Part shown: in pieces, positions 40,025 to 58,064 of the stretch
Layout of the letters: every line of letters starts with the position of its first letter
How positions within the stretch are numbered: position 1 is the stretch's first letter
Translations under genes and position numbers: made by a program
The notes under the pieces: model-generated
Told to the model about the DNA's origin: nothing
The model's input: only the letters and a program-made list of their open reading frames with translations
Database searches by the model: none
DNA from: Mesorhizobium sp. WSM3859
GTDB lineage: Bacteria; Pseudomonadota; Alphaproteobacteria; Rhizobiales; Rhizobiaceae
DNA length: 64,000 bases
Assembly (NCBI RefSeq): GCF_002295065.1
Contig: NZ_NSGG01000002.1
Location: forward strand, 558,001 to 622,000
Reading direction: 5' to 3'

Positions 40025-40031
40025 GGCCGGA

Positions 40032-41312: not shown

Positions 41313-41451
41313 GGCCACCTCTTGCTGATCGTCTCCCCCGACCCCGCTATTGGTCCGCGCGCGGCGGGTCAAGGCGTCTTGGCATTTTGGCGGCAATTGC
41401 GCACGGGAAAGCAGCGCAAACGCCGGGGATTGATTGAAGTCGCCCCAACCT

Positions 41452-41611
41452 CGTCATTCTATGGCGAAGCAAGGAGCGAAGCGACGCGGCGCAGACTTAG
41501 CCGGAGGATGCAAATGGCAGAGAATTCTGCACCGTTGCGGCGCTTCGAGGTCACGGAATGGATCCTCGGGTCTGCGCGTCCGCTTCGCTCCCGCTCCGCC
41601 CGTGGATGACG
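41452..41611. repeat. R1 MITE-like palindromic element, copy 3
   Basis: The left arm CGTCATTCTATGGCGAAGCA is more diverged than in the other copies; the centre keeps GAGAATTCTGCACCGTTGCG and the right arm GGTCACGGAATGGATCC...TGGATGACG. It fills the 311-base gap between purD and the PhyH gene together with about 140 bases of unremarkable sequence next to purD. Confidence 0.8.
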
Positions 41612-41623
41612 AGGCAGGGCCGC

Positions 41624-42418: not shown

Positions 42419-42477
42419 CGTGCTCTCCTGCTTGTTCGATGACCGACTATCGCAAGAGCGTCACATCACGTAAAATA

Positions 42478-42498
42478 ATAACTTGTCATTTCACTTAT
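42478..42498. promoter_or_regulatory. Possible LysR-type binding dyad between phyH and lysR
   Basis: ATAACTTG and CACTTAT flank TCATTT and give an imperfect dyad with an ATAA...TTAT frame, 12 bases from the lysR start. LysR-type sites are built on T-N11-A with weak dyad symmetry. The position fits control of both divergent genes; the sequence alone is weak support. Confidence 0.4.
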
Positions 42499-42509
42499 AG
42501 TTTTCATCT

Positions 42510-43421: not shown

Positions 43422-43487
43422 GGTTTCGGCGCTTGAGCGACATTGCGGCCGCTTGACGGGGCCGCCTGCTGCTGCCACTCCAACGTG

Positions 43488-44471
43488 ATGGAAACCGTCC
43501 AGTCGAAAGCGATCCAGGGCCGTGTCGCCGACGCGCCGAGCGGCCATTGGGTCTACCGCGTGCTGCCGCGCTGGCTGTGGCCCTATGCGCAGCTGGCGCG
43601 CTGGGACCGGCCGATCGGCTGGCAGCTGCTGCTCTGGCCCTGCTGGTGGTCGGCAGCACTTGCCGCGGGCGCCTATCCGCGCCCGACCGACCCGCTGCTG
43701 ACGCTGCTTCCAGCGCCCTGGTACCTGCTTTTGTTCTTCATCGGCGCCGTCGCCATGCGCGGCGCCGGCTGCACCTATAACGACCTCGCCGACGAGGACA
43801 TCGACAATCAGGTCGAGCGCACCCGCTCGCGCCCGCTGCCCGCCGGCAAGGTGACGCGGCGCCAGGCCTGGATCTTCGTCATCATCCAGGCGCTGGTGGG
43901 CCTGGCCGTGCTGCTGCAGTTCAACAGCTTCGCCATTCCGCTCGGCGTCGCTTCGCTCGCGATCGTCGCGGTCTATCCCTTCATGAAGCGCATCACCAAC
44001 TGGCCGCAATTCGTGCTGGGCTTGGCCTTCTCCTGGGGCGCGCTGATGGGCTGGGCTGTCGAGTTCGGCGACATCGATGACCCGGCGATCATGCTCTATA
44101 TCGGCTCGATCCTGTGGGTGATCGGCTACGACACGATCTACGCGCATCAGGACAAGGAAGACGACGCCATCGTCGGCGTGCGCTCGACGGCGCGGCTGTT
44201 CGGCGACAACACCAAGATGTGGCTCACCGGGCTCTATGGCGGCGCGCTGATCTGCTTCGCCATCGCCTTTGCCTCGGCGCAGGTGCCGATCGTGGCGCTG
44301 GCCGGCCTGATCGCCGCCGGCGCGCATATGGCGCGCCAGATCATCCGGCTAGACATCAACAATGGGGACCAGTGCCTGAAGCTGTTCAAATCGAACAACC
44401 AGGTCGGCTGGCTGATCTTCCTCGGGCTGATCGGCGGGTCGGTGTGGATATGGCTGAAGCCGCTGGTGTAG
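43488..44471 (+). CDS. ubiA: 4-hydroxybenzoate polyprenyltransferase
   Basis: 327 residues from the ATG at 43488. Attaches a polyprenyl chain to 4-hydroxybenzoate in ubiquinone synthesis. Both magnesium-diphosphate motifs are present: NDLADEDID (first) and YAHQDKEDD (second), separated by the expected membrane segments; ARWDRPIGWQLLLWPCWW opens the first helix. About eight hydrophobic segments are visible. The polyprenyl donor would come from the synthase at 59234-60250. The lysR gene is 66 bases upstream on the same strand, with no sign of a shared function. Confidence 0.95.
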   Translation: METVQSKAIQGRVADAPSGHWVYRVLPRWLWPYAQLARWDRPIGWQLLLWPCWWSAALAAGAYPRPTDPLLTLLPAPWYLLLFFIGAVAMRGAGCTYNDLADEDIDNQVERTRSRPLPAGKVTRRQAWIFVIIQALVGLAVLLQFNSFAIPLGVASLAIVAVYPFMKRITNWPQFVLGLAFSWGALMGWAVEFGDIDDPAIMLYIGSILWVIGYDTIYAHQDKEDDAIVGVRSTARLFGDNTKMWLTGLYGGALICFAIAFASAQVPIVALAGLIAAGAHMARQIIRLDINNGDQCLKLFKSNNQVGWLIFLGLIGGSVWIWLKPLV

Positions 44472-44481
44472 CGGGCTTTTT

Positions 44482-44625
44482 CCTTCTCCCCTTGTGGGAG
44501 AAGGTGGATCGGCGCGCAGCGCCGAGACGGATGAGGGGTGTTCCAGCGAAGTGAGACGCTGGCTTTCTCTGGAGCACCCCTCATCCGTCGCCTTCGGCGA
44601 CACCTTCTCCCACAAGGGGAGAAGG
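44482..44625. repeat. R4 inverted-repeat element after ubiA
   Basis: The left terminus 44482-44540 contains CCTTCTCCCCTTGTGGGAGA, AAGG, the stem CGGCGCGCAGCGCCG and GGATGAGGGGTG. The right terminus 44575-44625 is its inverse: CACCCCTCATCC, GTCGCCTTCGGCGAC, CCTTCTCCCACAAGGGGAG. The middle is a small CCAGCG...CGCTGG hairpin of 34 bases. It has the same design as the element in glyS and the DUF559 cassette. It may also serve as the ubiA and DUF6101 transcription end. Confidence 0.85.
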
Positions 44626-44636
44626 GGAAGGTCGCA

Positions 44637-45203
44637 CTACTCCCTTGCAATGATCTCCTGGCCGTCGATGACAAGCCTCAGGCCAAGGTTGCCGGCCTTG
44701 CGGCGGGCGAGGAAGCGCGGGCGGCGCGTGGTGGAGACACGGCCCTTGCGGCGCTCCTGCGGCGTCCGCGCCTTGATGGCGGCGCCGAGCGATTCTTCCA
44801 GCGTACGGGCGATGCCGTCGGCCTCGATCAAAAGCATCGGCAGGCGATAGGCGTCGGCCCAGGCGCGCCAGTCGGCGGCGACGTCCTCAAGATCATCGGC
44901 GACCAGCAGCGGCACCGACAGCATCGGATCATTGTGCAGGAGCTCGAGCGTCACCGTGACGTTGCCGTCCGGATCTTCCAAGGCCCGCGCCGCGACGCCG
45001 CGGAACGCCTTGGCGGGCAGCGCGATGATCGCCGGCACGCCGCTCATCTCCAGCATGCGGCGGATGACGGCGCCACGCTGGTCGATGGTGAAGGTGACAT
45101 CGCCATAGTCGTCGCGCGTGGCATAGCTCACCATCTGGGGCAGGCGAAACGGGTCGAGACGCATGTTGCGCCCGGCCCAGACTGGCTTCAGTCCAGTGTT
45201 CAT
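44637..45203 (-). CDS. DUF6101 family protein
   Basis: 188 residues. Begins MNTGLKPVWAGRNMRLDPFR, with ATRDDYGDVTFTIDQRGAVI and a basic C-terminus (TRRPRFLARRKAGNLGLRLV). I associate this pattern with the DUF6101 family of rhizobia; function is unknown and no transmembrane segment or signal peptide is visible. It converges on ubiA across an R4 element and is separated from the upstream FAD oxidase by 185 bases in which GGGCCGGTTTTCCGGCC-like stems suggest a terminator. Confidence 0.7.
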   Translation of the reverse strand: MNTGLKPVWAGRNMRLDPFRLPQMVSYATRDDYGDVTFTIDQRGAVIRRMLEMSGVPAIIALPAKAFRGVAARALEDPDGNVTVTLELLHNDPMLSVPLLVADDLEDVAADWRAWADAYRLPMLLIEADGIARTLEESLGAAIKARTPQERRKGRVSTTRRPRFLARRKAGNLGLRLVIDGQEIIARE

Positions 45204-45388
45204 CGAATGTCTTCCCTGTTACTCCTGAGGGCCGTTTTCCGGTTCTCTCAGGGCCGGTTTTCCGGCCTCGTTATGGGAAGAAGCATTAGCGCTGGCTTCT
45301 TACCGTCGCGCTTAAGAAGTTCGGTTAAATTTTGCTGATCGGAGCCGATGGTTATCGGAATGCGACCGACCATCAGCTAGGGGAAGGA

Positions 45389-46822
45389 TCAGATAACCTT
45401 ACCGGGATTCATGATGCCGGCCGGATCGAAGGCGGCCTTCACGCGACGCATCAGGTCGATGGCCATCGGCGGCGCCGTGGCGATGAGCTCGTCGCGCTTC
45501 AACTGACCGATGCCGTGCTCGGCCGAGATCGAGCCGTGGAAGGAGCGCACGACATCGTGCACGGCCTTATTCATCGGGTGGTAGAGCTCGAGGAACGGCT
45601 CGTCCTGCCAGTCCACGGGGCGCGAGATGTTGTAGTGAAGATTGCCGTCGCCCATATGGCCGAAGCAAACCACGCGCGCGCCGGGGCAGACAGTCTCCAC
45701 CACGCCGGCCGCCTTTTCGATGAAGTCCGGGATCGAGGCGATCGGCACGGAGATGTCGTGCTTGATCGAGGCGCCCTCGGGCTTTTGGCATTCGGGCAGC
45801 GTCTCGCGGAAATTCCAGAAGGCATCGCCCTGGGCCAGGCTTGCCGACACCACGGCATCACCGACGATGCCTTGCTCGAGGCCGGCCGAAAGGATCTCCT
45901 CGATCAGCGCCTTGCCGTCCTCTTCAGAGCGTCCGGACGAGATCTGCATCAGCACATACCACGGCCAGTCGTCGGCCAGCGGCCGGGTGATACCTTGCCC
46001 GTGCTTCAGCGTGAAATCGTAAGGCCTTCTGGCGATCAGCTCGAAAGCGGTGAGCGAGGCGCCGGCCCTATCCATCGCCAAGGTGAACAACGAAAGCGCG
46101 TCCTTAGGGGACGACGGCAGGCCGGCAAAGGCGACCTCCCTGCCCTTCGGCTTCGGGAACAGCTTCAGCACTGCGGCGGTGATGACGCCGAGCGTGCCTT
46201 CGGCGCCGACGAAGAGGTTCTTCAGGTCGTAGCCGGTGTTGTCCTTCTTCAATTTGCGCAAATCGTCGAAGACCTCGCCGGTCGGCAGCACCACCTCGAC
46301 GCCGAGGCAGAGCTCACGCGCATTTCCATAGGCAAGCACGCCGGTGCCGCCGGCGTTGGAGGAGAGATTGCCGCCGATCTGGCAGGAGCCTTGCGCGGCG
46401 AGCGAGAGCGGAAACAGCCGGTCGGCGGCGTCGGCGGCCTCCTGCAGCGTCTGCAGGATGACGCCGGCCTCGGCCGTCACTGTGTTCGACAGGACATCGA
46501 TCTCGCGGATGCGGTTCAGCCGCGACAGTGACAGCACGATGTCGTGGCCGGATTTGTCCGGCACCTGGGCGCCGACCAAGCCCGTATTGCCGCTCTGCGG
46601 CACGATCGGCGTGCCGGTCTCGGTCGCAAGGCGCATGATGCGGCTCACCTCCTCGACGCTGCCCGGCCTCAGAACCAGCGATGTGCGACCATGCCAGAGG
46701 CCGCGCCGCTCGGTGATGTAGGGCGCGATGTCGGCCTGATCGCGCAGCGCATATTTGTCGCCGACGATTGCCGCGAAGCGGTCGATGACGGCAGGGTCGA
46801 GGTCGAAGGGCTGATCGTTCAT
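45389..46822 (-). CDS. FAD-linked oxidase (D-2-hydroxyglutarate/glycolate oxidase-like)
   Basis: 477 residues. N-terminal FAD-binding type 4 domain: SLVLRPGSVEEVSRIMRLA, VPQSGNTGLVGAQ and CQIGGNLSSNAGGTGVLAYG; C-terminal FAD-oxidase domain with VVCFGHMGDGNLHYN and ISAEHGIGQLKR, which hold the metal- and substrate-binding histidines of D-2-hydroxyacid dehydrogenases. The family includes D-lactate, glycolate and D-2-hydroxyglutarate oxidases; the sequence does not decide. It lies alone, with an R3 hairpin between its start and the converging side of sua5. Confidence 0.88.
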   Translation of the reverse strand: MNDQPFDLDPAVIDRFAAIVGDKYALRDQADIAPYITERRGLWHGRTSLVLRPGSVEEVSRIMRLATETGTPIVPQSGNTGLVGAQVPDKSGHDIVLSLSRLNRIREIDVLSNTVTAEAGVILQTLQEAADAADRLFPLSLAAQGSCQIGGNLSSNAGGTGVLAYGNARELCLGVEVVLPTGEVFDDLRKLKKDNTGYDLKNLFVGAEGTLGVITAAVLKLFPKPKGREVAFAGLPSSPKDALSLFTLAMDRAGASLTAFELIARRPYDFTLKHGQGITRPLADDWPWYVLMQISSGRSEEDGKALIEEILSAGLEQGIVGDAVVSASLAQGDAFWNFRETLPECQKPEGASIKHDISVPIASIPDFIEKAAGVVETVCPGARVVCFGHMGDGNLHYNISRPVDWQDEPFLELYHPMNKAVHDVVRSFHGSISAEHGIGQLKRDELIATAPPMAIDLMRRVKAAFDPAGIMNPGKVI

Positions 46823-46836
46823 GGGTCAGAACCTAA

Positions 46837-46880
46837 AGCAATTCCAGGAAAAGTGCGAAACGGTTCCGTCCGGAATTGCA
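46837..46880. repeat. R3 hairpin repeat, copy 2
   Basis: AGCAATTCCAGGAAAAGTGC, then GAAACGGTTCCGTCCGGAATTGC, the inverse orientation of the copy at 15718. It lies between the start of the FAD-oxidase gene and the end of sua5, a 76-base gap, so it may also overlap the oxidase promoter. Confidence 0.75.
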
Positions 46881-46898
46881 TCAAAACAAAGCGATAGA

Positions 46899-47927
46899 TC
46901 AGCCAGTCTTGCCGCGTGGCGCGGCAGCACGGGCAAGGCGGTCATTTATCGCCTCGCCCAGGCCCTCGAACGGGATCGGTTCGACAGCGATGGTCGTGGC
47001 GCCGCTGCGGTCGAGCGCCTGCATGGCCGCAAAAAGGTTGCTTGCCGCCTCGCGCAGGTCGCCTCTCTCGGAAAGATTGCGCAGCGCAACGGCCTGTTCC
47101 CAGCCCCAGGCGCGTTTGCCGCCGAAAGCGAGCAACGCCTCGCCTTCGGCAATCTTCTCCACGTTCAGCCGCATCGCCGCACCCGGCGCGTAATGCGAGG
47201 CGAGCATGCCGGGCGCTTCGATGCCGGCAGCGCCACGCACCAGTTTCGCGCCGGCCACCGCCTCGATCTCCTCGGCGCCGATGCCGCCGGGCCTGAGCAG
47301 CCGCAATTTGCCATGCTCGACCTTGAGAATGGTCGATTCCAGGCCGACGAGCGTGGCGCCGCCATCGACGACCAGCTTGATCCTGTCACCGAGATCGGCG
47401 GCGACCGCTTGCGCCGTCGTGCCACTGATCTTTCCGGACGAATTGGCGCTGGGGGCGGCGAGCGCCCGGCCGAGCCGCGCGATCAGCTCGCCGCCGAACC
47501 CGCGCGGCATGCGCAGCGCGATCGTGTCCAGCCCCGCGGTGACCAGCGGATGGATGCCGTTGTCCGCGCGCTGCGGCAGCACCAGCGTCAGCGGGCCGGG
47601 CCAGAAGGCTTCGGCCAATCTTGCCGAGAGCGGGTCGAAGCCGGCGATGCGGTCGGCCATCGCGCGATCGGCGACATGGGCGATCAGCGGGTTGAAGCGT
47701 GGCCGGCCCTTGGCCTCGAAAATGCGCGCAACGGCGACGCCGTTGGTGGCATCACCTGCCAGGCCGTAAACCGTCTCGGTCGGGATGGCGACGACGTCGC
47801 CGGCTTGAAGCAACGCCAAAGCCCGCTCAAGCGCCTCGCCAACCGCCAATATCTCAGCCAAATTCGCCACCAGTCCTGATGCATGTTGCCCAATAGTGTG
47901 CAGCGGTTTTGGGACAACAACATGCAT
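46899..47927 (-). CDS. L-threonylcarbamoyladenylate synthase, Sua5 type
   Basis: 342 residues from the ATG at 47927; a GTG near residue 20 is an alternative. Makes threonylcarbamoyl-AMP for the t6A37 modification of ANN-decoding tRNAs. The YrdC/Sua5 domain has IPTETVYGLAGDATN, RPRFNPLIAHV, RMPRG and APSANSSGKIS; the additional Sua5 domain follows with GMLASHYAPGAAMRLN. This two-domain form is the Sua5 type rather than the short TsaC type. The upstream 207 bases hold a palindrome at 47938-47981 and no gene. Confidence 0.93.
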   Translation of the reverse strand: MHVVVPKPLHTIGQHASGLVANLAEILAVGEALERALALLQAGDVVAIPTETVYGLAGDATNGVAVARIFEAKGRPRFNPLIAHVADRAMADRIAGFDPLSARLAEAFWPGPLTLVLPQRADNGIHPLVTAGLDTIALRMPRGFGGELIARLGRALAAPSANSSGKISGTTAQAVAADLGDRIKLVVDGGATLVGLESTILKVEHGKLRLLRPGGIGAEEIEAVAGAKLVRGAAGIEAPGMLASHYAPGAAMRLNVEKIAEGEALLAFGGKRAWGWEQAVALRNLSERGDLREAASNLFAAMQALDRSGATTIAVEPIPFEGLGEAINDRLARAAAPRGKTG

Positions 47928-47937
47928 GAAACAAAAC

Positions 47938-47981
47938 CTAAAGCGCGTCGATTGAATCCATTTCAACGCGACGCGCTTTAG
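47938..47981. repeat. Extragenic palindrome upstream of sua5
   Basis: TAAAGCGCGTCG and CGACGCGCTTTA form a 12-base inverted repeat around a spacer that itself pairs partly (TTGAATCC/ATTTCAA). It lies 11 bases ahead of the sua5 start codon on the plus strand coordinate, so it could influence that gene's mRNA leader. No other copy is seen in the window. Confidence 0.65.
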
Positions 47982-48134
47982 ACATGCCGGTCCCGTAATA
48001 CGGCCGCATCCATCGGGCAAGTGCGCGCATTGGCGATTTATCAATCCCTAAAATGTTAAGTTTCCGCGCAAGCCGGCTTCAATTTGCCGGCGTTAAGGTG
48101 CGGGCCGGTGGTTACGGGCTGGGGAGTTTTCGTC

Positions 48135-48668
48135 ATGCGTTTGCTCGGAGCGTTCGGCATAAGCCTTTTGGCAATGAACGGCGCGGCGCATGCTTCGTCG
48201 ATCGTCGCGCTCGGCGTCTCGACCTCGACGCCTTCAGTGGTCAAGTTGGACGCGATCGATCCGGCCAAGCTGTCGGCGCTCTCCGCGCCATCGTTGATTG
48301 CGCTCGGCGACTACCCCATGCCCGCCGTCACCGACGAAAAGGTCGCGGCTATTCCCGAAAAGCCCGGGCATCAGCCGGCGCCGATGATCATCCGCGGCGG
48401 CATTGTCGGCGGCGCCTTCGCAACGCCTGCCGCGACCGCATCGGCCAAGCCCGCAACGCCGGCAACCGCGGCCACCACGCCGGCGGCCACCACGCCGGCA
48501 AACGGCACTTCGCCGGCAACGCCTGCCGACGGCACCGCGTCCGCTTCGAACGGCAACGACAAGGCCGGCAGCCAGCCGACCGCTACAGCCAATGCGTCGG
48601 GCGGCGCGCAGCCACAGGCCCAGCCGCAAAATGCCCAGCAGCTGCCGCGCGTCGGCAAGGCGATGTAA
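48135..48668 (+). CDS. Secreted Ala/Thr/Pro-rich protein of unknown function
   Basis: 177 residues from the ATG at 48135, with GGGGAG 8 bases upstream. A signal peptide ends near AHA-SSI. Residues 25-95 look ordered (VVKLDAIDPAKLSALSAPSL), but from about 100 the chain is alanine/threonine/proline-rich with tandem TPAATTPANGT-like units, then a glutamine-rich tail ending QLPRVGKAM. Such composition suggests a flexible envelope linker or surface protein. No domain is recognised. It precedes the small secreted protein gene by 101 bases on the same strand. Confidence 0.68.
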   Translation: MRLLGAFGISLLAMNGAAHASSIVALGVSTSTPSVVKLDAIDPAKLSALSAPSLIALGDYPMPAVTDEKVAAIPEKPGHQPAPMIIRGGIVGGAFATPAATASAKPATPATAATTPAATTPANGTSPATPADGTASASNGNDKAGSQPTATANASGGAQPQAQPQNAQQLPRVGKAM

Positions 48669-48769
48669 ATCACACTGGACGCCATCCCGATATGCTAGGC
48701 GCTTGGCACTGTCCGAATCCCGTCATCGGGATCGGGCACGATAGCACTGGCATTTCAAAGGGGGGTTTC

Positions 48770-49159
48770 ATGACTGTTTCGAAAGCAATGGCCGTTGCCG
48801 GGCTGGTGGCGGCAACAGTGCTGGGCGCGGGTTCGGCGCGGGCCGACGATATGCTCGGCTCTTACGTCGCGCGGATTTCCGATCGCGATCATCGGGCCAG
48901 CGACGGCTATCCGCTGAGCAGCGCGGCGCAGATGGTGCGGCAAGACCGCGCCAACTGGCACAAGTTCCACCGGCGCGACGGCGACGACCAGGGCGATCCC
49001 TGGTTCCGCAGCGACGGCTCGCGCGCCGACCTGCAGCGCATGCTGGAACGCGGCGGCGCCATGAGCAGCGCCACAAGGCGCGCCATCGTCAATGGCGAAC
49101 CGTTGATCGAGGTGGATGTCTATTCCGACAGCGTGCGGGTCAGCATAGTGGAAGATTGA
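48770..49159 (+). CDS. Small secreted hypothetical protein
   Basis: 129 residues from the ATG at 48770, preceded by AAGGGGGG. A signal peptide (KAMAVAGLVAATVLGAGSARA) ends before DDM. The mature part is polar and rich in Arg/Asp (RQDRANWHKFHRRDGDDQGD), with a structured end (EPLIEVDVYSDSVRVSIVED). I know of no named family. A GC-rich stem GGGCGACGCG/CGCGCCGCCC at 49206-49232 after the stop may end transcription of this and the preceding gene. Confidence 0.7.
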   Translation: MTVSKAMAVAGLVAATVLGAGSARADDMLGSYVARISDRDHRASDGYPLSSAAQMVRQDRANWHKFHRRDGDDQGDPWFRSDGSRADLQRMLERGGAMSSATRRAIVNGEPLIEVDVYSDSVRVSIVED

Positions 49160-49256
49160 GAGGTCAATCTTCCTGGAGGACTGACGAGCCTAGCCTGACG
49201 AAAAGGGCGACGCGCTCAACGCGCCGCCCCTCATGCCTCACACGACAGGAGACGGC

Positions 49257-49580
49257 TCAGGCCGCTTCTTCTTCGTCATCATCTTCGTCGGCGTCCTCTT
49301 CATCCTCGTCGCCGTCTTCATCCTCGTCATCGGACTCGTCGCCCGAGGCCTTGGCTTCTTCGTCGGCGTCATCGTCTTCGTCTTCGTCGTCATCTTCATC
49401 CTCGTCTTCCGACTCGGCGTCAGTCGAGGCGATGGCCTCCTCTTCGTCGTCTTCGGAAGGACCGGCGGATTCGACCGCCGCCGCAGCGGCGTGGTCGAGG
49501 AGATTTTCGGAAGTGGATTCGATGCCCTCGGCGGCGGCCGGGGTCTCTTCAATCAGGTCGATATCGTCAACGGAATTCAT
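49257..49580 (-). CDS. Extremely acidic low-complexity protein
   Basis: 107 residues with a good ribosome-binding site (GGAGG, 6 bases before the ATG at 49580). The N-terminal third (NSVDDIDLIEETPAAAEGIE) is mixed; from residue 43 onward nearly every residue is Asp, Glu, Ala or Ser, ending in runs of DEDEDDDED. The complementary frames (a serine-rich one and a valine/phenylalanine-rich one) lack such signals and are taken as shadows. Function unknown. Its position after two secreted proteins and before glyS gives no clue. Confidence 0.7.
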   Translation of the reverse strand: MNSVDDIDLIEETPAAAEGIESTSENLLDHAAAAAVESAGPSEDDEEEAIASTDAESEDEDEDDDEDEDDDADEEAKASGDESDDEDEDGDEDEEDADEDDDEEEAA

Positions 49581-49743
49581 GGCATGCCTCCGTGTTTGGG
49601 AACGTATCTTTGTCCCATGCAGAGGTCATCGCCGTATGACTGTAAGCCGACTCCGGCGCATTAAATTTCGGACGCAAAATTGTTCAAGCCTGCCCGTACA
49701 CTAGCGAATACGAGCAGGCCTCAACCGCGCGATTTCTTCGCGG

Positions 49744-52053
49744 TCAGCCGACGATCTTTGAAAAATCCGCGACCTGATCGGTGGCGGCGCGGATGCGGGC
49801 AAGCAGCGCCAGGCGGTTGGCGCGCACGGCCTGGTCCTCATCATTCACGAGAACGCCTTCAAAGAATGAATCAACCGGTTCGCGCAACACGCTAAGGGCC
49901 AGCATGGCGCCGGAAAAATCTTCGTTTTGAATTGCTTGGCCGGCTTCCTTCTCGGCCTGATTCACCGCGGCATAGAGCTTCTTTTCCGCGTCCTCGCGGA
50001 ACAGAGCCGACTCAACGGTCTCGGCCACAGCCGTTTTCTTCTTCTCTTCCGCCGCCAGGATGTTGGCGGCGCGCTTGGTGCCGGCGAGCAGGTTCTTGCC
50101 TTCGTCGGTGTCGAGCAAGGAGCCCAGCGCCTCGACGCGGCGCACGATCTGCAACAGGTCGTCGGACTGCAGCGTGATGACGGCGTCGATCAGATCGTGC
50201 CGCGCGCCCTGGTCGCGGAGGTAGACCTTCAGGCGGTCGTGGAAGAAGGCAAGGAGGTCGGACGACTGATCCGCGCCGCCTTTGAAATTTGCAAAGGCCT
50301 TAGCGAAAACTGACGCCAGCGCCAGGCGAATCCGGTTCTCGATGAGGATCCTGACCACGCCAAGCGCAGCTCGGCGGAGCGCGAACGGATCCTTGCTGCC
50401 GGTCGGCTTCTCATCGATCGCCCAGAAGCCGGTCAGCGTGTCGAGCTTGTCGGCGAGCGCGACCGCGACCGAGACCGGATCGGTCGGCACGCGGTCGGAC
50501 GGACCCTGCGGCTTATAATGCTCCTCGGCGGCCGCGGCCACCGATGCGTGCTCGTCCTGCAGCAGCGCGTATTTGCGGCCCATGGCGCCTTGCAGTTCCG
50601 GAAACTCGCCAACCACTTCGGTCTGCAGATCGGCCTTGGCGAGCACCGCCGCGCGGGCGACAAGCGCGGTAATCTCCCTCCTTGAGGGGGAGATGTCGCC
50701 GAAGGCGACAGAGGGGGTCGTCTCACGTAGAATGCCGAGGCTGTCCGTCGTTGCGGAAGACGCTGGCGCTTCACGCGCGGCGACCCCCTCTGGCCTGCCG
50801 GCCATCTCCCCCTCAAGGGGGGAGATCGACTTCGCGACCACCGGCGCCAGTTCCTCGGCCAGGCGCTTGATACGCTCAACGCGCGCGCCTTGCGTGCCGA
50901 GTTTGGCATGGAAGGTCACGTTGAGATGGTCGAGCCGCGCCATGCGCTGGTCGAGCGGCTTCTTCAGATCCAGGTCGAACTTCGCCGCTGATACGCCCAG
51001 TTGATCGAGATCTGGCAGGTCGCTTTGGTCGGTCCTCCAGAAATAGAGCGCATCGGACAGGCGCGCCCTGACCACCTTGCCGTTGCCGTAGGCGATCTCC
51101 TTGCCGCCGCCCTTCGCCTCGATGTTGGCGACCAGGATGAAGCGATTGGACAGATCGTCGGACGCGCCCTGTGGCCGGGTGACGAAGCATTTCTGGTTGG
51201 CGCGGATGGTGAGGCGGATGACCTCGCCCGGAATGGTGAGGAAATCCTGCTCGAACTCGCCCATCAGCACGACCGGCCATTCGACCAGGCCGGAGACTTC
51301 CTCCAGCAGGCCCTCGTCCTCGACGAGGTCGAGGCCGTTGGCGAAGGCAATGTTGCGGGCATCGGCCAGGATGATCTCCTTGCGCCGGTCCGCGTCGAGC
51401 ACGACCTTGGCCGCTTCGAGCTTCGCCACATAGTCGTCGAAGCGGCGCACGGTGATCGGGCCCGGCGCATGGAAGCGGTGGCCATAGGTGATGTTGCCGG
51501 CGCGGATGCCGTCGATCTCGAAATCGACCACGACCGGCTCCTCGGTCTCCGGGCCGAAGGTGCAGACGATCGACTGCAACGGCCGTACCCAGCGCAGCGA
51601 GCCGGGCTTCGCCGAGGCCGGCCCCCAGCGCATCGATTTCGGCCAGGGGAAGCTCTTGATGATGCCCGGCACCAGCTCGGCGATGATCTCTTCGGCCGCC
51701 CTGCCCGGCTTCGAGATGTGCGCGAGATAGAAATCGCCCTTCTTCGGATCGGAATGGACATGCGCCTCGGCGATCGATGACAGGCCGGCCTTGCGCAGGA
51801 AACCCTGCACCGCCTGCTCGGGCGCCGTGGTCGAGGGACCCTTGATCTCCTCGCGAATGTCCTTCGAGCGCGCCGTCAGGCCGCGGATGTCGAGCGCCAG
51901 GCGCCGCGGCGTCCAATATTCGCGCGCCGCCTCATAGGTGAGACCCGCCTCGACCAGACCGTCGGTCAGCATCTTCCTGAGGTCGCCGGCAGCCTTGCGC
52001 TGCATGCGGGCTGGAATCTCTTCCGAGCGAAGTTCTAGAAGCAGGTCAGGCAT
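49744..52053 (-). CDS. glyS: Glycyl-tRNA synthetase beta subunit carrying an in-frame repeat insertion
   Basis: 769 residues; E. coli GlyS has 689. N-terminal [16 protein letters not shown] and the central catalytic support domain ([19 protein letters not shown]) are normal, as is the C-terminal anticodon-binding part. Around residue 410 the protein contains [20 protein letters not shown], continuing to [12 protein letters not shown], which is a translation of an R4 repeat (50672-50826) without stop codons. The insertion sits between [12 protein letters not shown] and [20 protein letters not shown], which would otherwise join. The start codon is 11 bases from the DUF559 cassette, and GGGAG inside or at the cassette end can serve as its ribosome site. 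Pairs with glyQ, 1 kb upstream. Confidence 0.95.
50672..50826. repeat. R4 inverted-repeat element inside the glyS coding sequence
   Basis: Left terminus 50672-50720: ATCTCCCTCCTTGAGGGGGA, GATGTCGCCGAAGGCGAC, AGAGGGGGTCG. Right terminus 50781-50826, inverse: CGACCCCCTCTGGCC, TGCCGGCC, ATCTCCCCCTCAAGGGGGGA. The terminal 46-49 bases match over most positions. The 60-base middle codes for part of the GlyS insert. Edges are set by symmetry, so the exact in-frame length of the insertion may differ by a base or two. Confidence 0.88.
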
Positions 52054-52064
52054 GATTAGGCTCC

Positions 52065-52585
52065 CACCCTCCCCTTGATGGGGAGGGTCGGCGCGTAGCG
52101 CCGGGGCGGGGTGACGGCCTCTCAGCCGCCAATACCTTCGGCACCATCGCGCAGATGCAGGTGTGATTTCCGTTCTTCCACCGCCGCATAAATTGTATCG
52201 AGCACGGAATCCAGTTCGTTTTTTATCTCATGGTTCCAGAAGCGGACGACGCGATAGCCCTGGCTTTCAAACCATCGTGTTCGAACTTCATCATGGCGAA
52301 GTTGATCATCGGCACTGTGGTGGGAGCCATCCACCTCGATAATCAATTTCAGCCGATGGGATAAGAAGTCGGGGTAATAGGCGCCCACAGACGCCTGTCG
52401 GCGGAAATGTGTCCCTTCGACCGGGATGCGCCACAGGTGCCGCCACAGCAGTCGTTCTTCGTCCGTCATCGAGGCGCGAAGCCTTCGTGCGGACTGCAAC
52501 TTGAAACGGTCAAGTTTTGGCATAGGGAAGCGCCAGTCACCCCCACCCGCCGCTTCGCGGCGACCTCCCCCATCAAGGGGGAGGT
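52065..52585. mobile_element. R4-type cassette: DUF559 gene between 49-bp inverted repeats
   Basis: The left terminus 52065-52113 reads CACCCTCCCCTTGATGGGGA, GGGTCGGCGCGTAGCGCCG, GGGCGGGGTG. The right terminus 52537-52585 is its inverse: TCACCCCCACCCGCCGC, TTCGCGGCGACC, TCCCCCATCAAGGGGGAGGT. Each terminus holds two stems (CCCC-TTGAT-GGGG and CGGCGC...GCGCCG) and a G-run, as in the two gene-less R4 elements. The DUF559 gene fills the space between them. The cassette separates glyS from glyQ. No target duplication is obvious by eye. Confidence 0.75.
52122..52523 (-). CDS. DUF559 (Vsr/very-short-patch-repair-like endonuclease fold) protein
   Basis: 133 residues from the ATG at 52523. An open frame continues upstream to 52619, but there it translates the inverted repeat, so it is rejected as coding. 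Motifs of the PD-(D/E)xK-like DUF559 fold: [20 protein letters not shown] (Asp, then Glu-x-Asp), [19 protein letters not shown] and [10 protein letters not shown]. The family resembles Vsr and other small endonucleases; no activity is proven for rhizobial members. The gene runs from one inverted terminus to the other of a 521-bp cassette. Stop and termini are only 8 bases apart. Confidence 0.86.
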
Positions 52586-52775
52586 AAGAGCGCATAGCAA
52601 CTCGGCCGGCCCCTGTCACCCTGCATGCCGATCCCCATTTCGATCGATTTCAGGAAATTTTCAGGTCTTCGTCGGGACCGGGCGGGTCCACCCGTCCTAA
52701 GTGCAGACACCCCATGAACCGAACACGGCGCTGAAGCGACACACGCTCAGGCGGAGACCTATTGGCTGAACGACA

Positions 52776-52958
52776 ATGAAGACGGCATCGAGAACCCTGC
52801 AGATCCTGGCGCTCAGCGCCTGCTTCGCCGCCCAGATGCACGGCGTGATCACGATGCCGGGGGTGAGGCAGGCCATGCGCACGATCGACGGCGCGACCGC
52901 GCAGATCGTGTTGCCGGCCGGCGCCGCCACCGAGACCCTGAAAGCCGTACCGGCCTAG
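52776..52958 (+). CDS. Possible small secreted protein in the glyQ-glyS gap
   Basis: 60 residues, MKTASRTLQILALSACFAAQ then MHGVITMPGVRQAMRTIDG. The first 18 residues look like a signal peptide and third-codon positions are G/C-rich, but no ribosome-binding site precedes the ATG, and overlapping frames on the minus strand are equally long. It is kept as a low-confidence call. Apart from this, the cassette end and R3 copy 3, the 531-base stretch 52524-53054 shows nothing. Confidence 0.3.
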   Translation: MKTASRTLQILALSACFAAQMHGVITMPGVRQAMRTIDGATAQIVLPAGAATETLKAVPA

Positions 52959-53056
52959 AGCGATCCACCGTTTCACGGCAACGGTGAATTCGCTCTATCT
53001 TGTTTTGACGCGATTCCGGACGGAAAACCGCTACGCACTTTTCCTGGAATTGCTCT
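52956..53056. repeat. R3 hairpin repeat, copy 3, joined to a second hairpin
   Basis: The first stem is TAGAGCGA...TCGCTCTA with an inner CCACCGTT/AACGGTG pair (52956-52997). The second is the R3 unit, CGATTCCGGACGGAAAACCG, then CTACGCACTTTTCCTGGAAT and TGCTC (53010-53056). The element runs to within a base or two of the glyQ stop codon and is well placed to end glyQ transcription. Confidence 0.75.
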
Positions 53057-54002
53057 AAGCCGCCGCCAGCCCGCCTGCCCGTGTCTTCAGAAACGCCTCG
53101 CCGCAGGCTTTGGCCAGGTTGCGCACACGCAGGATATAGCTTTGCCGCTCGGTGACCGAGATCACGCCGCGCGCGTCGAGCAGGTTGAAGACATGGCTTG
53201 CCTTGATGCACTGGTCGTAGGCCGGAAAGACCATGCGGTGCATGGCCAGATTGTCGCTCGGCTTCGGCGTGCCGGCATCGAGCAGCGCCTTGCACTCGGC
53301 CTCGGCGTCCTCGAAGTGCCTCAGCAGCATCGCGGTGTTGGCGAATTCGAAATTGTGGCGCGAATATTCCTGCTCGGCCTGCAGGAAGACGTCGCCGTAG
53401 GTGACTTTCTCGGCACCCTCGCGGCCGTTGAAATTCAGGTCGTAGACATTGTCGACGCCCTGCACATACATGGCGAGCCGCTCCAGCCCGTAGGTCAACT
53501 CGCCCGCCACCGGCGCGCATTCGATGCCGCAGACCTGCTGGAAATAGGTGAACTGGGAGACTTCCATGCCGTCGCACCAGCACTCCCAGCCAAGCCCCCA
53601 GGCGCCAAGCGTGGGGCTTTCCCAATCGTCCTCGACGAAGCGGATGTCATGCAGCAGCGGATCGACGCCGATCGCTTCCAGCGAGCCGAGATAGAGCTCC
53701 TGCAGGTTCGGCGGATTGGGCTTCAGGATCACCTGGTACTGGTAATAATGCTGCAGGCGGTTGGGGTTCTCGCCATAGCGGCCGTCCTTCGGCCGGCGCG
53801 AGGGCTGGACGTAAGCGGCGTTCCAGCGCAGCGGACCGAGCGCGCGCAAGGTGGTGGCCGGATGGAAGGTGCCGGCGCCGACTTCCATGTCGTAAGGCTG
53901 CAGGATGAGGCAACCATAGTCGGCCCAGTAATTGTGCAAGGTCAGGATCAGCCCCTGGAAGGAGCGGCTGGGATGCATATGTGCGGGGATTTCGATGGTC
54001 AC
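53055..54002 (-). CDS. glyQ: Glycyl-tRNA synthetase alpha subunit
   Basis: 315 residues, the normal length. The alpha subunit carries the class II catalytic site: [62 protein letters not shown] and [18 protein letters not shown] are all intact. It forms an alpha2beta2 enzyme with GlyS. In most genomes glyQ and glyS are adjacent; here 1,001 bases containing the DUF559 cassette and an R3 repeat lie between glyQ stop and glyS start, so coordinated transcription may be affected. Confidence 0.97.
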
Positions 54003-54170
54003 GGCGGCCTCGGAAAGCGCAGGATGACGCTTCCCTAGTTGTCGAGCCGGCGAGCGTCAAGGCAGTGGCTCACGACCGGCAAGGCGGAAAGCTTTGCGGC
54101 AGGCTGGCCCATTGCCGTCGGGCGTGGGTCGCCGTTTGCTCCGTTCCACGTCAATGACAGAGGTTTCGCC

Positions 54171-54632
54171 ATGTCCGGTCAACTTACCGTCCGCCCTGTC
54201 ACAAGGCAGGATTACGAACAGTGGCTGCCGCTGTGGGACGGCTACAACGCATTTTACGGTCGCTCCGGCCCAACGGCGCTTGCCGGCGAGATCACGCAGA
54301 TGACCTGGTCGCGTTTCTTCGACGCCTATGAGCCGGTGCATGCGCTGGTGGCCGAGCGCGAAGGCAGTCTGCTCGGCCTCGTCCACTATCTCTACCATCG
54401 CTCGACGACATCGATCGCGCCGAGCTGCTATTTGCAGGATCTCTTCACCACGCAGGCCGCGCGCGGCCAGGGAGTCGGCAGGGCGCTGATCGAAGGCGTC
54501 TACGAACGCGCCGGCCGAGCGGGCGCGAACCGCGTCTACTGGCTGACGCATGAGACGAACCACACGGCGATGCAGCTCTACGACAAGGTCGGCGAGAAGT
54601 CCGGGTTCGTGGTTTACAGAAAGATGTTCTAG
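54171..54632 (+). CDS. GNAT family N-acetyltransferase
   Basis: 153 residues from the ATG at 54171, with CAGAGG 6 bases upstream; the open frame to 54039 is rejected. Acetyl-CoA-binding motif A is LQDLFTTQAARGQGVGRALI (R/Q-x-x-G-x-G/A) and the substrate part contains DGYNAFYGR. The C-terminal HTAMQLYDKVGEKSGFVVYR is motif B. The substrate is unknown. It lies alone on the plus strand between glyQ and the R1 element, divergent from glyQ across 168 bases. Confidence 0.9.
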   Translation: MSGQLTVRPVTRQDYEQWLPLWDGYNAFYGRSGPTALAGEITQMTWSRFFDAYEPVHALVAEREGSLLGLVHYLYHRSTTSIAPSCYLQDLFTTQAARGQGVGRALIEGVYERAGRAGANRVYWLTHETNHTAMQLYDKVGEKSGFVVYRKMF

Positions 54633-54742
54633 CTCCTGGATTCAGGGATTTTAAAAGTCGCTTTGGTCGCGGGGCGAGATCTTCGCCGGTGACTTCCCTG
54701 AAATCGGCACAAAGCCGAGGATTGGCCGAAGCCGCTCGAACC

Positions 54743-54924
54743 TCGTCATTCCAGGGCGGAGCAGCCGCGAAAGCGGCGTCGCGGAGACCCTGGAATCCAT
54801 TCCGTGACCCTGATCGAAGGGTGCAGCGGAGCAGAATTCTGCACCGCTGCAGAGTTCGAAAGTCACGGATGGATCCTCGGGTCTGCGCGCGTCGCTTCGC
54901 TCCTTGCTCCGCCCGTGGATGACG
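54743..54924. repeat. R1 MITE-like palindromic element, copy 4
   Basis: Left arm CGTCATTCCAGGGCGGAGCA; the centre is GTGCAGCGGAGCAGAATTCT followed by GCACC; right arm GTCACGGATGGATCCTCGGG then GCTCCGCCCGTGGATGACG. This is the clearest full copy and best shows the arm-centre-arm layout. The remaining parts of 54633-55044 contain no gene. Confidence 0.86.
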
Positions 54925-55044
54925 ATCGCGATAGGCGTCTAGGCCAATCTCCAAAGTGGGGTCGAACCTACCCAAGCTCGGCCGAGCCGAAACGAAAAAC
55001 GGGGCTCGACGAGCCCCGCATTCTTGAACGTCGACGAAAGTCGC

Positions 55045-56820
55045 TCAGCCCTTCGGCGCGGGCGTCGGGTCCGGCTTCACCTTCGGGGTTTCCTGCGCGG
55101 TGTTGGACTCGATCGGCGGCAGGCCCTTGAGCAGCTTCCGCTGCAAGGTGGCGAGCACATCCGGATCGGGCTTCAGGTCGCGCGCCTGGGTCCACTGATA
55201 GGTGGCCTCGAGCTTGCGGCCGACGCGCCAGTAGGCATCGCCGAGATGGTCGTTGAGGACCGGATCCTCCGGCTTCAGCGAGACGGCGCGCTCCATCTCG
55301 CGCACGGCGTCGTCGAAGCGGCCCATGCGGAAGTAAGCCCAGCCCAGCGAATCGACGATGTAGCCGTCGTTCGGCCGCAGATCCACGGCCTTCTGGATCA
55401 TCGCCAGGCCTTCCTTGAGGTTCATGTTCATGTCGACCCAGGAATAGCCGAGATAGTTCATGACCTGCGGCTGGTCGGGCTGTAGCTCCAGCGCCTTGCG
55501 GAAATTGGGTTCGGCCTTCGGCCATTCCTTCAGCCGCTCATAGGCGATGCCGCGCTGGTAGAAGATGTTCCAGTTGGCTGCGGTCGGCGTCTTCAGCTGC
55601 TCGACGGCCTTGTCATAGAGATTGGCGGCCGAGCGGAAATCTTCCTTCGAGCCATAGACGCCGCCAAGCGCCAGATAGGCGCGCATGTCGGCCGGGTGCT
55701 TGTCGAGATAGGCCTTGAGGTGGGAAATCGCCTCGTCATGCTTGTCGAGATCGGCAAGGTTGAGGCCGATCTGCAGATCGGAGAGCTCTTTCAGCGGCGA
55801 GGATGCCGGAATACGGCGGTAGAGCGCGACCGCGCCCTCGCCGTCCTTCAGCTGCTCGGCAACGGCGGCAAGCTGCACCAACGCGGCGTCGCTGTCCGGC
55901 TTCAGCGCCAGCGCGTATTGCAGGTAAAGCCGCACGAAAGGCTCGCCGCCGCCGCGGTTGAGCGCGGTGGCAAGGTCGAGGAGGATTTCGGACGCGCCGT
56001 CGGCCGGGCTGGCGACCAGCGGCTCGATCTTGTCGCCCTTGGCGATGGGGTCGCGCAGCGTGGTGATTTCGAGCTTGCCCGGGGCGAAGGCTTCGGCCTG
56101 GTTCAGCACCGCCTCAGCCTTCGACTTGTCGCCCTTGCGGGCGAGGAAGGAGGCATAAGCCTGGGCATTGCGCATCCAGGTTTCGGGCGCGGAGCCGCCG
56201 GCCGCGGTGTCGGCAAGCGTGGCGGCGTAGATCGCATCGGCCTTGTCGCCGAGGCCGGCGGCATCGGCGATCAGCGCGCGGTGGAACGACTTGAACAGGC
56301 TGAACCAATCGGGGCCTTTCAGCTTGTCGATGGCATCCATGGCCTCGGACGCATTGCCGGCGCCCTGCTTGGCCCAACCGTCCATGACGCCGGAGAGCAA
56401 CCGGTCGAGGTCGGATTCGAGCGACAGCTTCAGCCAGTACTGCGCCTTGGCATAGTCCTTCTTGTGGAAGGAATCGATGGCCAGCGCCAGGCGCGAGAAG
56501 CGCTCGACATCGGGCACTTCCTTCAGCTTGTCGGCATAGACCAGCGATTCCTCGAACCGGCCCTGCGAGACAAGCGCCAGCATCAGGCTCTGCTGCAGCT
56601 CCTTGTCGTCGGGGGCAAAGGCCAGCGCCTGCTTGTAATAGGCGATCGCGTCGTCGAGGTCGTTGTCGCTTTCGGCGATATGGGCCGCAAGATAGGCGCC
56701 CGAGAAAGACGTGATCTGCAGCGGTTTGGCTTCTTCCTTGGCCTGGACCGGCAGCACCCAAAGCGCCACTCCGGTCAAAAATGCCAGCCTCGTCAGCCAG
56801 CGCGCACGTCCTTGCCGCAT
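55045..56820 (-). CDS. Tetratricopeptide-repeat protein, exported
   Basis: 591 residues from the ATG at 56820. An N-terminal signal or anchor (LTRLAFLTGVALWVLPVQA) precedes long arrays of TPR helices: AYLALGGVYGSKEDFRSAAN, AEPNFRKALELQPDQPQVMN, DGYIVDSLGWAYFRMGRFDD and EDPVLNDHLGDAYWRVGRKL show the WLGP-type TPR consensus. The C-terminus is proline/lysine-rich (TPKVKPDPTPAPKG). Likely an envelope assembly or scaffold factor; partners unknown. It lies upstream of nothing in operon distance and its promoter region (56821-57025) is shared divergently with no gene. Confidence 0.88.
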   Translation of the reverse strand: MRQGRARWLTRLAFLTGVALWVLPVQAKEEAKPLQITSFSGAYLAAHIAESDNDLDDAIAYYKQALAFAPDDKELQQSLMLALVSQGRFEESLVYADKLKEVPDVERFSRLALAIDSFHKKDYAKAQYWLKLSLESDLDRLLSGVMDGWAKQGAGNASEAMDAIDKLKGPDWFSLFKSFHRALIADAAGLGDKADAIYAATLADTAAGGSAPETWMRNAQAYASFLARKGDKSKAEAVLNQAEAFAPGKLEITTLRDPIAKGDKIEPLVASPADGASEILLDLATALNRGGGEPFVRLYLQYALALKPDSDAALVQLAAVAEQLKDGEGAVALYRRIPASSPLKELSDLQIGLNLADLDKHDEAISHLKAYLDKHPADMRAYLALGGVYGSKEDFRSAANLYDKAVEQLKTPTAANWNIFYQRGIAYERLKEWPKAEPNFRKALELQPDQPQVMNYLGYSWVDMNMNLKEGLAMIQKAVDLRPNDGYIVDSLGWAYFRMGRFDDAVREMERAVSLKPEDPVLNDHLGDAYWRVGRKLEATYQWTQARDLKPDPDVLATLQRKLLKGLPPIESNTAQETPKVKPDPTPAPKG

Positions 56821-57025
56821 CGTATCCCTTTCAGCCAGATGCAATCCCGCCCTTGGAGGACCGCCCCACAGACTCGAACTTTTCCGGTCAAAGCATGGCC
56901 TTTTTGCGGTCAGGCTTCAATCGGCAAGCGAATCACAATGCAATCATCCGGATTAAAAAACGATGCCGCGCCAACAAAAAGTCCCCTCGCATAGGTCCGG
57001 GACGCCGCATGTGGTACCGGGTTGC

Positions 57026-57442
57026 CTACAGACGCGTATCGCTGAACCCGTCGGCGGCAACGATGTCGCACAGGCCGGACCATTCGCAGCCGGAGCACGC
57101 CTGGCGCGTCAGGCCGGCGGAAAAAGCCTTCCGCATCCTTGCCAGTGCGGAGGCATCCAGCACGAACCGGTCTCCGGCCTGGATCGGCTGTCCGAGGAGA
57201 GCGCCGACATCGCGAGCCGCGACGTCATCCCGCCCGGCAGCGCTTTCGCCCAGGCAGTGCGGCTCTGACTCATTGAGCAGCGGGGCGCAGATGTCGTCCG
57301 GGCCGGAAACGATCAAAATATCCTCGCCGCCGGCCAGGCGCTTCACCACCACGTCATAATTGGCGGTGAAGGCCGGCGAGTAGCCCTTGCCGACATAGGT
57401 CAGCAGGCAGAGCAGATGATGGGCGCGCAGCCTGACGGTCAT
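57026..57442 (-). CDS. DUF1284 family protein
   Basis: 138 residues. Begins RLRAHHLLCLLTYVGKGYSP, with FTANYDVVVKRLAGGEDILI and a C-terminal CSGCEWSGLCDI, a conserved Cys cluster of the DUF1284 family that may bind an iron-sulfur centre. Function is not known. It follows bioY by 16 bases on the same strand, so it is part of the biotin-controlled unit, suggesting a link with biotin or with iron-sulfur enzymes of biotin metabolism. Confidence 0.8.
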   Translation of the reverse strand: MTVRLRAHHLLCLLTYVGKGYSPAFTANYDVVVKRLAGGEDILIVSGPDDICAPLLNESEPHCLGESAAGRDDVAARDVGALLGQPIQAGDRFVLDASALARMRKAFSAGLTRQACSGCEWSGLCDIVAADGFSDTRL

Positions 57443-57458
57443 CTGGTGTCGGGTCCGG

Positions 57459-58064
57459 TCATCTACCTGGCGACTTACCGGGGTCGGCCGGCCGGTTGCC
57501 CGAAAACAGCTTCAGCGTCGCCGCGCCCAGCGCCGACTTGAGCAGGCCGCCGACGATGAAGGGCAGGAAGCCGAAGGTGATGGCTTTCTCGGCGCCGATC
57601 ATGACGGCAAGCCAGGCTGTGCCCAGTACCAGGCAGAGCAGGTTGCCAATGAGCATGGCGGCGAAGGCAAGCATGACGCGGTTGCCGTTCCAGCCGCGCT
57701 CGGCCAGCCAGCCGACGACGGCGCCGACAACCGGGAACGAGAACAGGTAGCCGCCAGTCGGGCCGACGAAATGCTGGAGGCCGGCCGCCCCGCCAGCCAG
57801 CGCTGGAAACCCGGCCGCGCCTTCAACCAGCCAGGCGGCGATGGTGAGCGCGCCGAAGCGCCAGCCGTAAAGCGCGCCGACCAGCGTGACGGCGAAGGTC
57901 TGCATGGTCACAGGAACCGGCACCATTGGCACCTCGATATAGGAGGACAGCGCCAGGAACAGCGAGCCAAGAACGACGGCGCCGATCTGCCAGGCGAGCG
58001 AACGGCTGTGCAGCCGCAGTGGGCTGAAAGAGGGTTTTTGGGTGGAAATGGCTGCGTTGGTCAC
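57459..58064 (-). CDS. bioY: Biotin transporter substrate-binding subunit BioY
   Basis: 201 residues from a GTG at 58064, with GGGAAG 5-6 bases upstream; the longer frame to 58148 crosses the promoter. BioY is the S component of an ECF-type biotin importer and has six hydrophobic segments: LAWQIGAVVLGSLFLALSSY, MQTFAVTLVGALYGWRFGAL, GGYLFSFPVVGAVVGWLAER and MLIGNLLCLVLGTAWLAVMI are visible. The motif PVPVTMQTFAV is characteristic. Transcription is probably repressed through the BioR box at 58090-58099. bioM/bioN are not in the window. Confidence 0.94.
   Translation of the reverse strand: MTNAAISTQKPSFSPLRLHSRSLAWQIGAVVLGSLFLALSSYIEVPMVPVPVTMQTFAVTLVGALYGWRFGALTIAAWLVEGAAGFPALAGGAAGLQHFVGPTGGYLFSFPVVGAVVGWLAERGWNGNRVMLAFAAMLIGNLLCLVLGTAWLAVMIGAEKAITFGFLPFIVGGLLKSALGAATLKLFSGNRPADPGKSPGR

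Follow-up and report, generated by a model that had tools for sequence, protein, structure and literature searches.

DUF559 proteins are widespread, and the family name still denotes a domain of unknown function. One member, Caulobacter VsrA, is proposed to act in mismatch repair, and in the absence of a cytosine methyltransferase it triggers an SOS response (PMC12907096). On the repeat side, Holder et al. (PMC4666352) describe BoxC/PIT/TM repeats in more than 260 genomes, with 23 copies in E. coli MG1655, among them five inverted pairs, which always combine two subtypes. Their loci are more rearranged between strains and have been tied to E. coli genome instability, triplex formation in vitro was reported for the E. 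coli sequence, and the authors report that they found no gene for mobility beside the copies in E. coli. A pairing of enzyme and repeat is known from RAYT genes and REPINs: in two studies (PMC8049555, PMC3733652), a vertically inherited, single-copy gene is flanked by palindromes, non-autonomous inverted pairs are served in trans with family-specific matching, and presence of the gene goes with more repeats. A literature search, with most subscription journals beyond reach, found nothing linking DUF559 or its E. coli member ycjD to palindromic or triplex repeats. Here we describe a strong association of DUF559 genes with paired repeats of the triplex kind.

The window, by which we mean the whole 64-kb stretch of Mesorhizobium DNA that was analysed, contains a DUF559 gene between glyQ and glyS (Table 1). 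The first-pass annotation had placed this 133-codon gene inside inverted termini at 52065-52113 and 52537-52585, positions that proved correct to within a few bases: the arms are inverted, 63 nt long and 78% complementary, and hold no gene other than DUF559. A longer form of the DUF559 frame (ORF 52122-52619) runs through the 5′ terminus. The parts assigned to the termini, namely a C-rich/G-rich stem, a second stem and a gene-facing G-run, were likewise found in both arms. The 3′ terminus has the stem CCCTCCCC/GGGGAGGG, a second stem and the gene-facing tail GGGCGGGG; the 5′ terminus has the stem CCTCCCCC/GGGGGAGG, a second stem and the gene-facing tail GGTGGGGG. The two arms differ from each other (5′ arm, ACCTCCCCC..GGGGGAGGT..GGTGGGGGTG; 3′ arm, ACCCTCCCC..GGGGAGGGT..GGGGYGGGGTG), and this left/right difference was seen again in relatives among printed examples of up to five per cluster. 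A strict scan of the 64 kb for a stem of at least 8 bp with a matching third strand returned five arms, four with a perfect fit and one with a mismatch, all within the three elements that the annotation had named; five block shuffles of the window, used as control, gave zero arms. Rfam at gathering thresholds had no match in window positions 40000-58000.

Table 1. Coordinates of the cassette, its neighbours and the gene-less elements in the window.
Feature	Position	Strand	Remarks
DUF559 gene, 133 codons	52122-52523	minus	
Cassette 3′ terminus (type B, right end)	52060-52122	+	fit 0.88: one third-strand mismatch
Cassette 5′ terminus (type B, left end)	52529-52591	minus	perfect triplex fit
glyS	49744-52053	minus	downstream neighbour of cassette; host of in-frame gene-less element
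glyQ	53055-54002	minus	upstream neighbour of cassette
Gene-less type A element	44482-44625		arms 44482-44537 (+) and 44578-44625 (-); 40-nt spacer
Gene-less type C element	50672-50826		in frame in glyS, codons about 408-461; minus arm 50784-50825

The arms share one architecture: a C-rich/G-rich hairpin, often a second hairpin, and then a G-rich strand able to form a third strand. In this gene-facing tail the stem's purine strand recurs in mirror image, with G for G and A or T for A. The triplex rule was perfect in 214 of 272 unique arms at DUF559 genes, while arms whose tails had been swapped between different stems satisfied it in 13.6 cases on average and 21 at most. Where stems were asymmetric, the tail was the mirror image in 202/254 and a direct copy in 31/254. 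Judged from their letters, the arms are repeats of the BoxC/PIT/TM type by the rule of potential intrastrand triplexes. As described for that family (PMC4666352), they combine a hairpin with a mirror-image purine third strand and form inverted pairs of two subtypes. In contrast to that family, the third strand is set apart from the stem by a second hairpin in the window's arms and in many rhizobial ones, and one arm pair here sits within glyS; the window's arms also fall outside the loop of 1-6 nt that, in the same paper, defined the BoxC/PIT/TM search. Short loops were found in many other alphaproteobacterial arms. The arms do not fit CGTC-tagged REPs as described in PMC3733652 (CGTC tag, stem beginning AT, tail CCA).

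Enclosure by such arms is common among DUF559 genes. The window's genome has five of them, four inside long inverted arms (67 nt, 93%; 40+30 nt; 73 nt, 95%; 63 nt, 78%); the fifth (L001) is without enclosing arms, and a type C gene-less element abuts it. A DUF559 match was present in 59/61 Mesorhizobium genomes, 243 matches in total. Our sample of Mesorhizobium loci plus 35 named loci was taken from the matches listed, so that low-scoring DUF559 genes are under-represented; 175 of 196 ORFs were kept once duplicates had been dropped, and 171 were testable. Whether most DUF559 genes in Mesorhizobium and its relatives have paired termini, a check proposed at the outset, could be answered in the affirmative for this sample, as 122 of the 171 testable genes among the matches listed were enclosed at an alignment score of at least 18. 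At the same loci and score, 8/1297 random windows and 1/282 other ORFs were enclosed, and PIN-domain genes from 30 of the genomes gave 0/29 at score 18 and 1/29 at 14. These controls bear on the simplest alternative, that the repeats spread by slippage or recombination and DUF559 is ordinary cargo caught in repeat-rich genomes. The repeats are indeed common, and collapse to solo stems occurs, but other genes of the same genomes are not enclosed and arm types go with nuclease clusters (see below); this explanation is already disfavoured, and we consider it highly improbable.

The pattern extended across the class. A DUF559 match was found in 51/142 alphaproteobacterial genomes, and enclosure was tested, the window's genome aside, on the best-scoring 49 of the 69 listed matches that reached an E value of 1e-20, two of the 49 being untestable: 27/47 were enclosed at a score of at least 18 and 43/47 at a score of at least 14. 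Random windows (0/335 and 10/335, respectively) served as the class control because just three neighbour ORFs were usable (0/3 enclosed). A phylum search together with E. coli added 24 loci, of which 12 reached score 18 and 13 reached score 14. Seven of these 24 are alphaproteobacterial; at the 17 loci outside the class, E. coli included, enclosure was weaker (8/17 at 18, 9/17 at 14 or above). E. coli ycjD itself is a DUF559 gene with one neighbouring repeat only, in the 3′ intergenic region.

Several arrangements of DUF559 genes were recorded along the way. The L001 site group has its DUF559 gene at one site in 32 Mesorhizobium genomes, and 2/32 score as enclosed. Two cluster-1 cassettes of the window's genome (L002/L003, G000:C2:10728 and 11803) are separated by about 1 kb and both have full termini, and DUF559 gene pairs at a similar spacing occur in two further genomes (G031 and G057).

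The window's gene is a member of PF04480 (DUF559; E = 1e-33, 115.9 bits against a cut-off of 20.6). In the profile search just DUF559 and nuclease-like models matched it, and no HUH tyrosine transposase did. The protein resembles Vsr-like nucleases (Vsr, I-Bth0305I and 3HRL) in fold, for 3HRL and I-Bth0305I, and in near-invariant acidic and histidine residues. It differs from Vsr itself in its profile score, which at 18 bits lies far below the TIGR00632 cut-off of 97.85 and outside Vsr membership. Across 172 DUF559 sequences there is almost no variation at the E, D, ExDGxxH, D and RxW positions, which look like parts of an active site. The nearest solved structure was 3HRL, by sequence and by fold, and the catalytic domain of the homing endonuclease I-Bth0305I was the second-best fold match (E = 7e-3). 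The AlphaFold model of the DUF559 protein is modest (mean pLDDT 69.8); given this and the I-Bth0305I E value, we take the fold search as support only, and the likeness to homing endonuclease genes is one of predicted fold only. Median dN/dS was 0.06-0.14 in all six DUF559 clusters and 0.06 in that of the window's gene.

A host role for such a protein is the main rival to mobilisation. On this view DUF559 would serve the host in repair or surveillance, either like Vsr or by resolving hairpins and triplexes, and the repeats would last only where the nuclease keeps them tolerable, lying at its gene for regulation or by selection. The Vsr-like fold and weak Vsr profile match point that way, as do the strong purifying selection on DUF559, the vertical inheritance of its genes and the mismatch-repair role proposed for the DUF559 protein VsrA of Caulobacter (PMC12907096). 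However, a repair nuclease leaves unexplained why the gene sits between two repeats that face each other and are mostly of its own subtype, and why gene-less type A elements contain both cassette ends. We regard it as unlikely.

Nuclease cluster and repeat type match largely type by type. At 60% identity the DUF559 sequences formed six clusters, with the window's gene in cluster 3 and its Rhizobium relatives in cluster 4. Among the matches listed, the enclosed genes in clusters 0-5 numbered 28/59, 34/40, 23/28, 20/23, 7/11 and 7/7. Within this same set, 25/28 enclosed cluster 0 genes had two type C arms; the 34 of cluster 1 had two type A arms in 23 cases, one in 6 and type C arms in 3; type B arms enclosed 19/20 in cluster 3 and 7/7 in cluster 4; and GGAGAGG stems occurred in 6/7 of cluster 5. 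Cluster 2 had several arm types. In the printed examples (up to five per cluster), clusters 3 and 4 share an asymmetry, a left-type end being paired with a right-type one. With one strict pattern, the cluster 5 repeats were not seen as an expanded family, their termini being almost without gene-less copies.

The match was also visible genome-wide, with cluster content per genome taken from the fetched loci and with 0 copies of the reversed-pattern control in every genome. After subtraction of a gene's own termini, the median number of type A arms was 13 in genomes with cluster 1 and 2 in those without (p = 7e-6), and type B arms numbered 6 with the glyS-linked gene and 2 without it (p = 6.5e-5); exchanging the two genes in these tests gave 0.61 and 0.09. 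Uncorrected tests also returned non-cognate links, of type A with cluster 0 (p = 0.009) and of type B with clusters 0 (p = 0.0003) and 2 (p = 0.013). In a joint regression (five clusters present), type A went with cluster 1 (p = 4e-6) and weakly with cluster 0 (0.02), and type B with cluster 3 (p = 0.002) and cluster 0 (p = 0.0015). Leaving out 8 early-branching genomes, clusters 1 (4e-6) and 3 (0.005) stayed and cluster 0 dropped out, while type B kept a weak link to cluster 2 (p = 0.03). On supported branches of the glyS tree, presence of more than 3, 5 or 8 type A copies went in the expected direction in 4.2, 3.4 and 2.1 of 7 independent pairs and in the opposite direction in 0.0, 0.2 and 0.5 on average (median p = 0.125 for more than 3 copies); for more than 4 type B copies the figures were 2.0 of 4 pairs and 0.1. 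The association in tree pairs thus goes the expected way, but the pairs are too few and it is not significant.

The two other elements in the window had been described as having the cassette's termini without its gene. The plan is indeed the same, but the terminus types are not the cassette's: they are those found mostly at DUF559 clusters 1 (44482 element) and 0 (glyS element), so neither element is a MITE of the glyQ-glyS cassette. The spacer of the first carries subterminal sequences of cluster-1 cassettes; the plus arm of the second has a broken stem and was missed by the strict scan. Gene-less pairs of the cassette's own type B lie elsewhere, both in the window's genome (e.g. G000:C4:53753-53853) and in relatives, and each of 14 such pairs printed joins one left-type to one right-type end. 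Gene-less elements usually outnumber gene-bearing ones, and their arms enclose about 11-103 nt. In the fetched loci, most of which surround DUF559 genes, neighbouring arms (those of gene-bearing pairs included) faced tail-inward rather than outward (44 vs 9, 40 vs 10 and 18 vs 3), with discrete spacers.

The parallel first drawn with a transposon and its MITEs gained support from the spacers. In all 22 gene-less type A spacers, a set that takes in orthologous sites, both ends matched those of gene-bearing spacers with values beyond the 99th percentile of a control (n = 1000; 99th percentile 0.59, maximum 0.77), although the weakest real matches, 0.64-0.77, lie inside the control range. Since both cassette ends are kept, these elements look like internal-deletion derivatives, and type A gene-less elements look, by this comparison, to be related to gene-bearing ones as MITEs are to transposons. 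Terminal inverted arms and short derivatives with both ends are what the system has in common with IS elements and MITEs; it differs in that DUF559, and no transposase, lies between the arms, and in that gene copies rarely move.

Gene-less elements turn over, and here the expectation of strain-specific presence and absence was borne out, for the glyS element and at sites orthologous to 44482. Among 61 genomes the glyS element was full-size in 17, shorter in 2 and absent from 42, which have a 15-nt gap; its length was a multiple of three in every case and the empty sites are in frame. A tree of 60 genomes (G033 left out) required 10 changes. At the site orthologous to 44482, as we read the alignments of 30 chosen genomes, nine have a type A pair, inverted in one and damaged in another; ten have a pair of the cluster-2 type, two a truncated one, four a solo stem, two another repeat and one an empty 15-nt site. 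By eye, no consistent target duplication was seen at the aligned junctions, including those of the in-frame empty glyS sites. At the remaining two of the 30 sites orthologous to 44482, L376 (G058) and L381 (G011), the hairpin is split by unrelated sequence, possibly insertion sequences.

The gene-bearing cassette has another history. Its gene adjoins glyS in 29/35 named rhizobial loci; in Mesorhizobium, Zhengella, Phyllobacterium and Notoacmeibacter its other neighbour is glyQ, and for the Rhizobium and Agrobacterium loci the stretch within reach showed glyS but no glyQ. Among testable Mesorhizobium genomes, 17/59 have the glyQ-glyS cassette, with glyQ and glyS 877-1022 nt apart where measured; without it the distance is mostly 366-527 nt. 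Of 8 cassette-free sites aligned, 5 contain a solo 3′ terminus, which looks like loss, and 3 have no terminus. To all appearance in sequence comparisons, the glyQ-glyS cassette is old, syntenic and under purifying selection. Gene cassettes in general formed 24 conserved site groups among the matches listed, and in 21 of these half or more of the genes were enclosed (for two of the 21, judged by subtraction from the cluster total); three groups (39 genes), including the 32-genome group, were mostly unenclosed. The suggestion of a recent mobile insertion does not survive the position beside glyS in 29/35 loci, the median dN/dS of 0.06 and the 24 site groups, and the comparison with empty sites between glyQ and glyS that had been proposed for it instead met solo 3′ termini at five of the eight sites. 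Recent insertion was accordingly rejected on synteny and solo remnants. Presence at every ortholog with ordinary gene-like divergence had been named as a sign against mobility; the gene is under purifying selection, at a median dN/dS of 0.06 for its cluster, and the cassette is present in 17 of 59 testable genomes and not everywhere.

Conserved sites also bear on a third alternative, in which a homing-type DUF559 gene inserts itself into repeat pairs that are already there; the repeats would be its target and would spread by other means. The homing endonuclease I-Bth0305I is its second-best fold match, and several genomes have many more type A arms than cluster-1 genes, the window's genome, for instance, 62 of the former and 2 of the latter. 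A homing gene, however, should be found in many different pairs, and the gene-bearing elements occupy few conserved sites; the repeats would still need a mobility gene of their own, and their number follows the gene. This alternative seems to us quite improbable.

In the glyQ-glyS gap, a further dispersed repeat family (AATTCCAGGAAAAGTG...; 46834-46889 / 53000-53057) has one copy in the window's genome. At that place G031 carries an insert that is not the same but looks similar; none is present at the other ten aligned sites.

Across genera, repeats and DUF559 occur together. Two triplex-motif patterns were counted in 142 alphaproteobacterial genomes of 140 genera; reversed patterns gave 0 copies, except for 4 in one genome. 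At least two repeats were found in 33/37 genomes with DUF559 (E of 1e-20 or better) and in 8/105 others, among which are 14 genomes with weak or partial DUF559 matches only (odds ratio 100, p = 2e-20). The exceptions are four DUF559 genomes that do not reach two repeats and eight genomes that have repeats but were classed as lacking DUF559. Removing two arms per gene left at least two repeats in 27/37 vs 8/105, and among genomes of at least 3 Mb repeats were present in 25/26 with DUF559 and 2/30 without.

In E. coli, the ycjD block matched over at least 80% of its length in 3362/5426 genomes. We took 60 rows spread over the ranking, dropped one partial record (H72), and counted match places, taken as the repeat and including one place at the ycjD/fabI site itself: there were 17-32 in the 37 rows with ycjD and 3-18 in the 22 without (p = 1.6e-10), a difference that does not amount to many independent events because E. 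coli lineages are few. Clean presence and absence of a ycjD cassette was considered and rejected, as two ycjD-less strains show no empty site beside fabI. In L363 and L364, which are without ycjD, a TetR regulator and RND efflux genes lie beside fabI, and the stretches end before sapF.

The reading we favour, and hold to be slightly better than an even bet, is that a Vsr-fold nuclease and triplex repeats form a pair like RAYT and REPIN with an unrelated enzyme; the action of the nuclease, and with it mobilisation, we infer by analogy. The window cassette would be one member of a two-part system of a small DUF559 nuclease and folding BoxC/PIT/TM-type repeats. An arm would fold in single-stranded DNA during replication or transcription, the nuclease would recognise its cognate fold and cut, and repair of the break would copy or remove the element. 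In this way the nuclease might spread or maintain gene-less elements in trans, while its own gene would stay mostly in place and be inherited vertically. The RAYT/REPIN features outlined above recur here: the gene is single-copy and vertically inherited, its matching repeats flank it, non-autonomous inverted pairs lie elsewhere, and its presence goes with more repeats. The differences are DUF559 in place of the HUH/tyrosine transposase, no GTAG-tagged REP, and an arm with a third-strand tail. A more far-reaching reading, which we put at a little under an even chance, would make triplex-armed DUF559 genes a new class of mobile DNA whose single enzyme is the Vsr-like nuclease, with BoxC/PIT/TM repeats as the non-autonomous form on which it acts in trans; as part of it, E. 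coli YcjD would act on E. coli BoxC.

The link offers a candidate enzyme for BoxC/PIT/TM repeats and a candidate substrate for the DUF559 protein. These repeats are abundant and long known, and DUF559 may be their missing mobility gene; scattered as they are through Proteobacteria, they would, if this is true, be the non-autonomous partners of DUF559 elements. After RAYT/REPIN it would also provide a second, independent example in which an enzyme maintained by vertical descent is coupled to a population of small palindromic repeats, a nuclease replacing the tyrosine transposase. The link makes the spread of triplex repeats testable in laboratory strains.

One more dispersed repeat family was noticed in the window. 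It starts TCGTCATTC and recalls CGTC-tagged REPs, which are without a known transposase; its copies stand in inverted orientation at 41451-41488 / 54888-54925, with further ones at 41549 / 54780 and 41584 / 54741.
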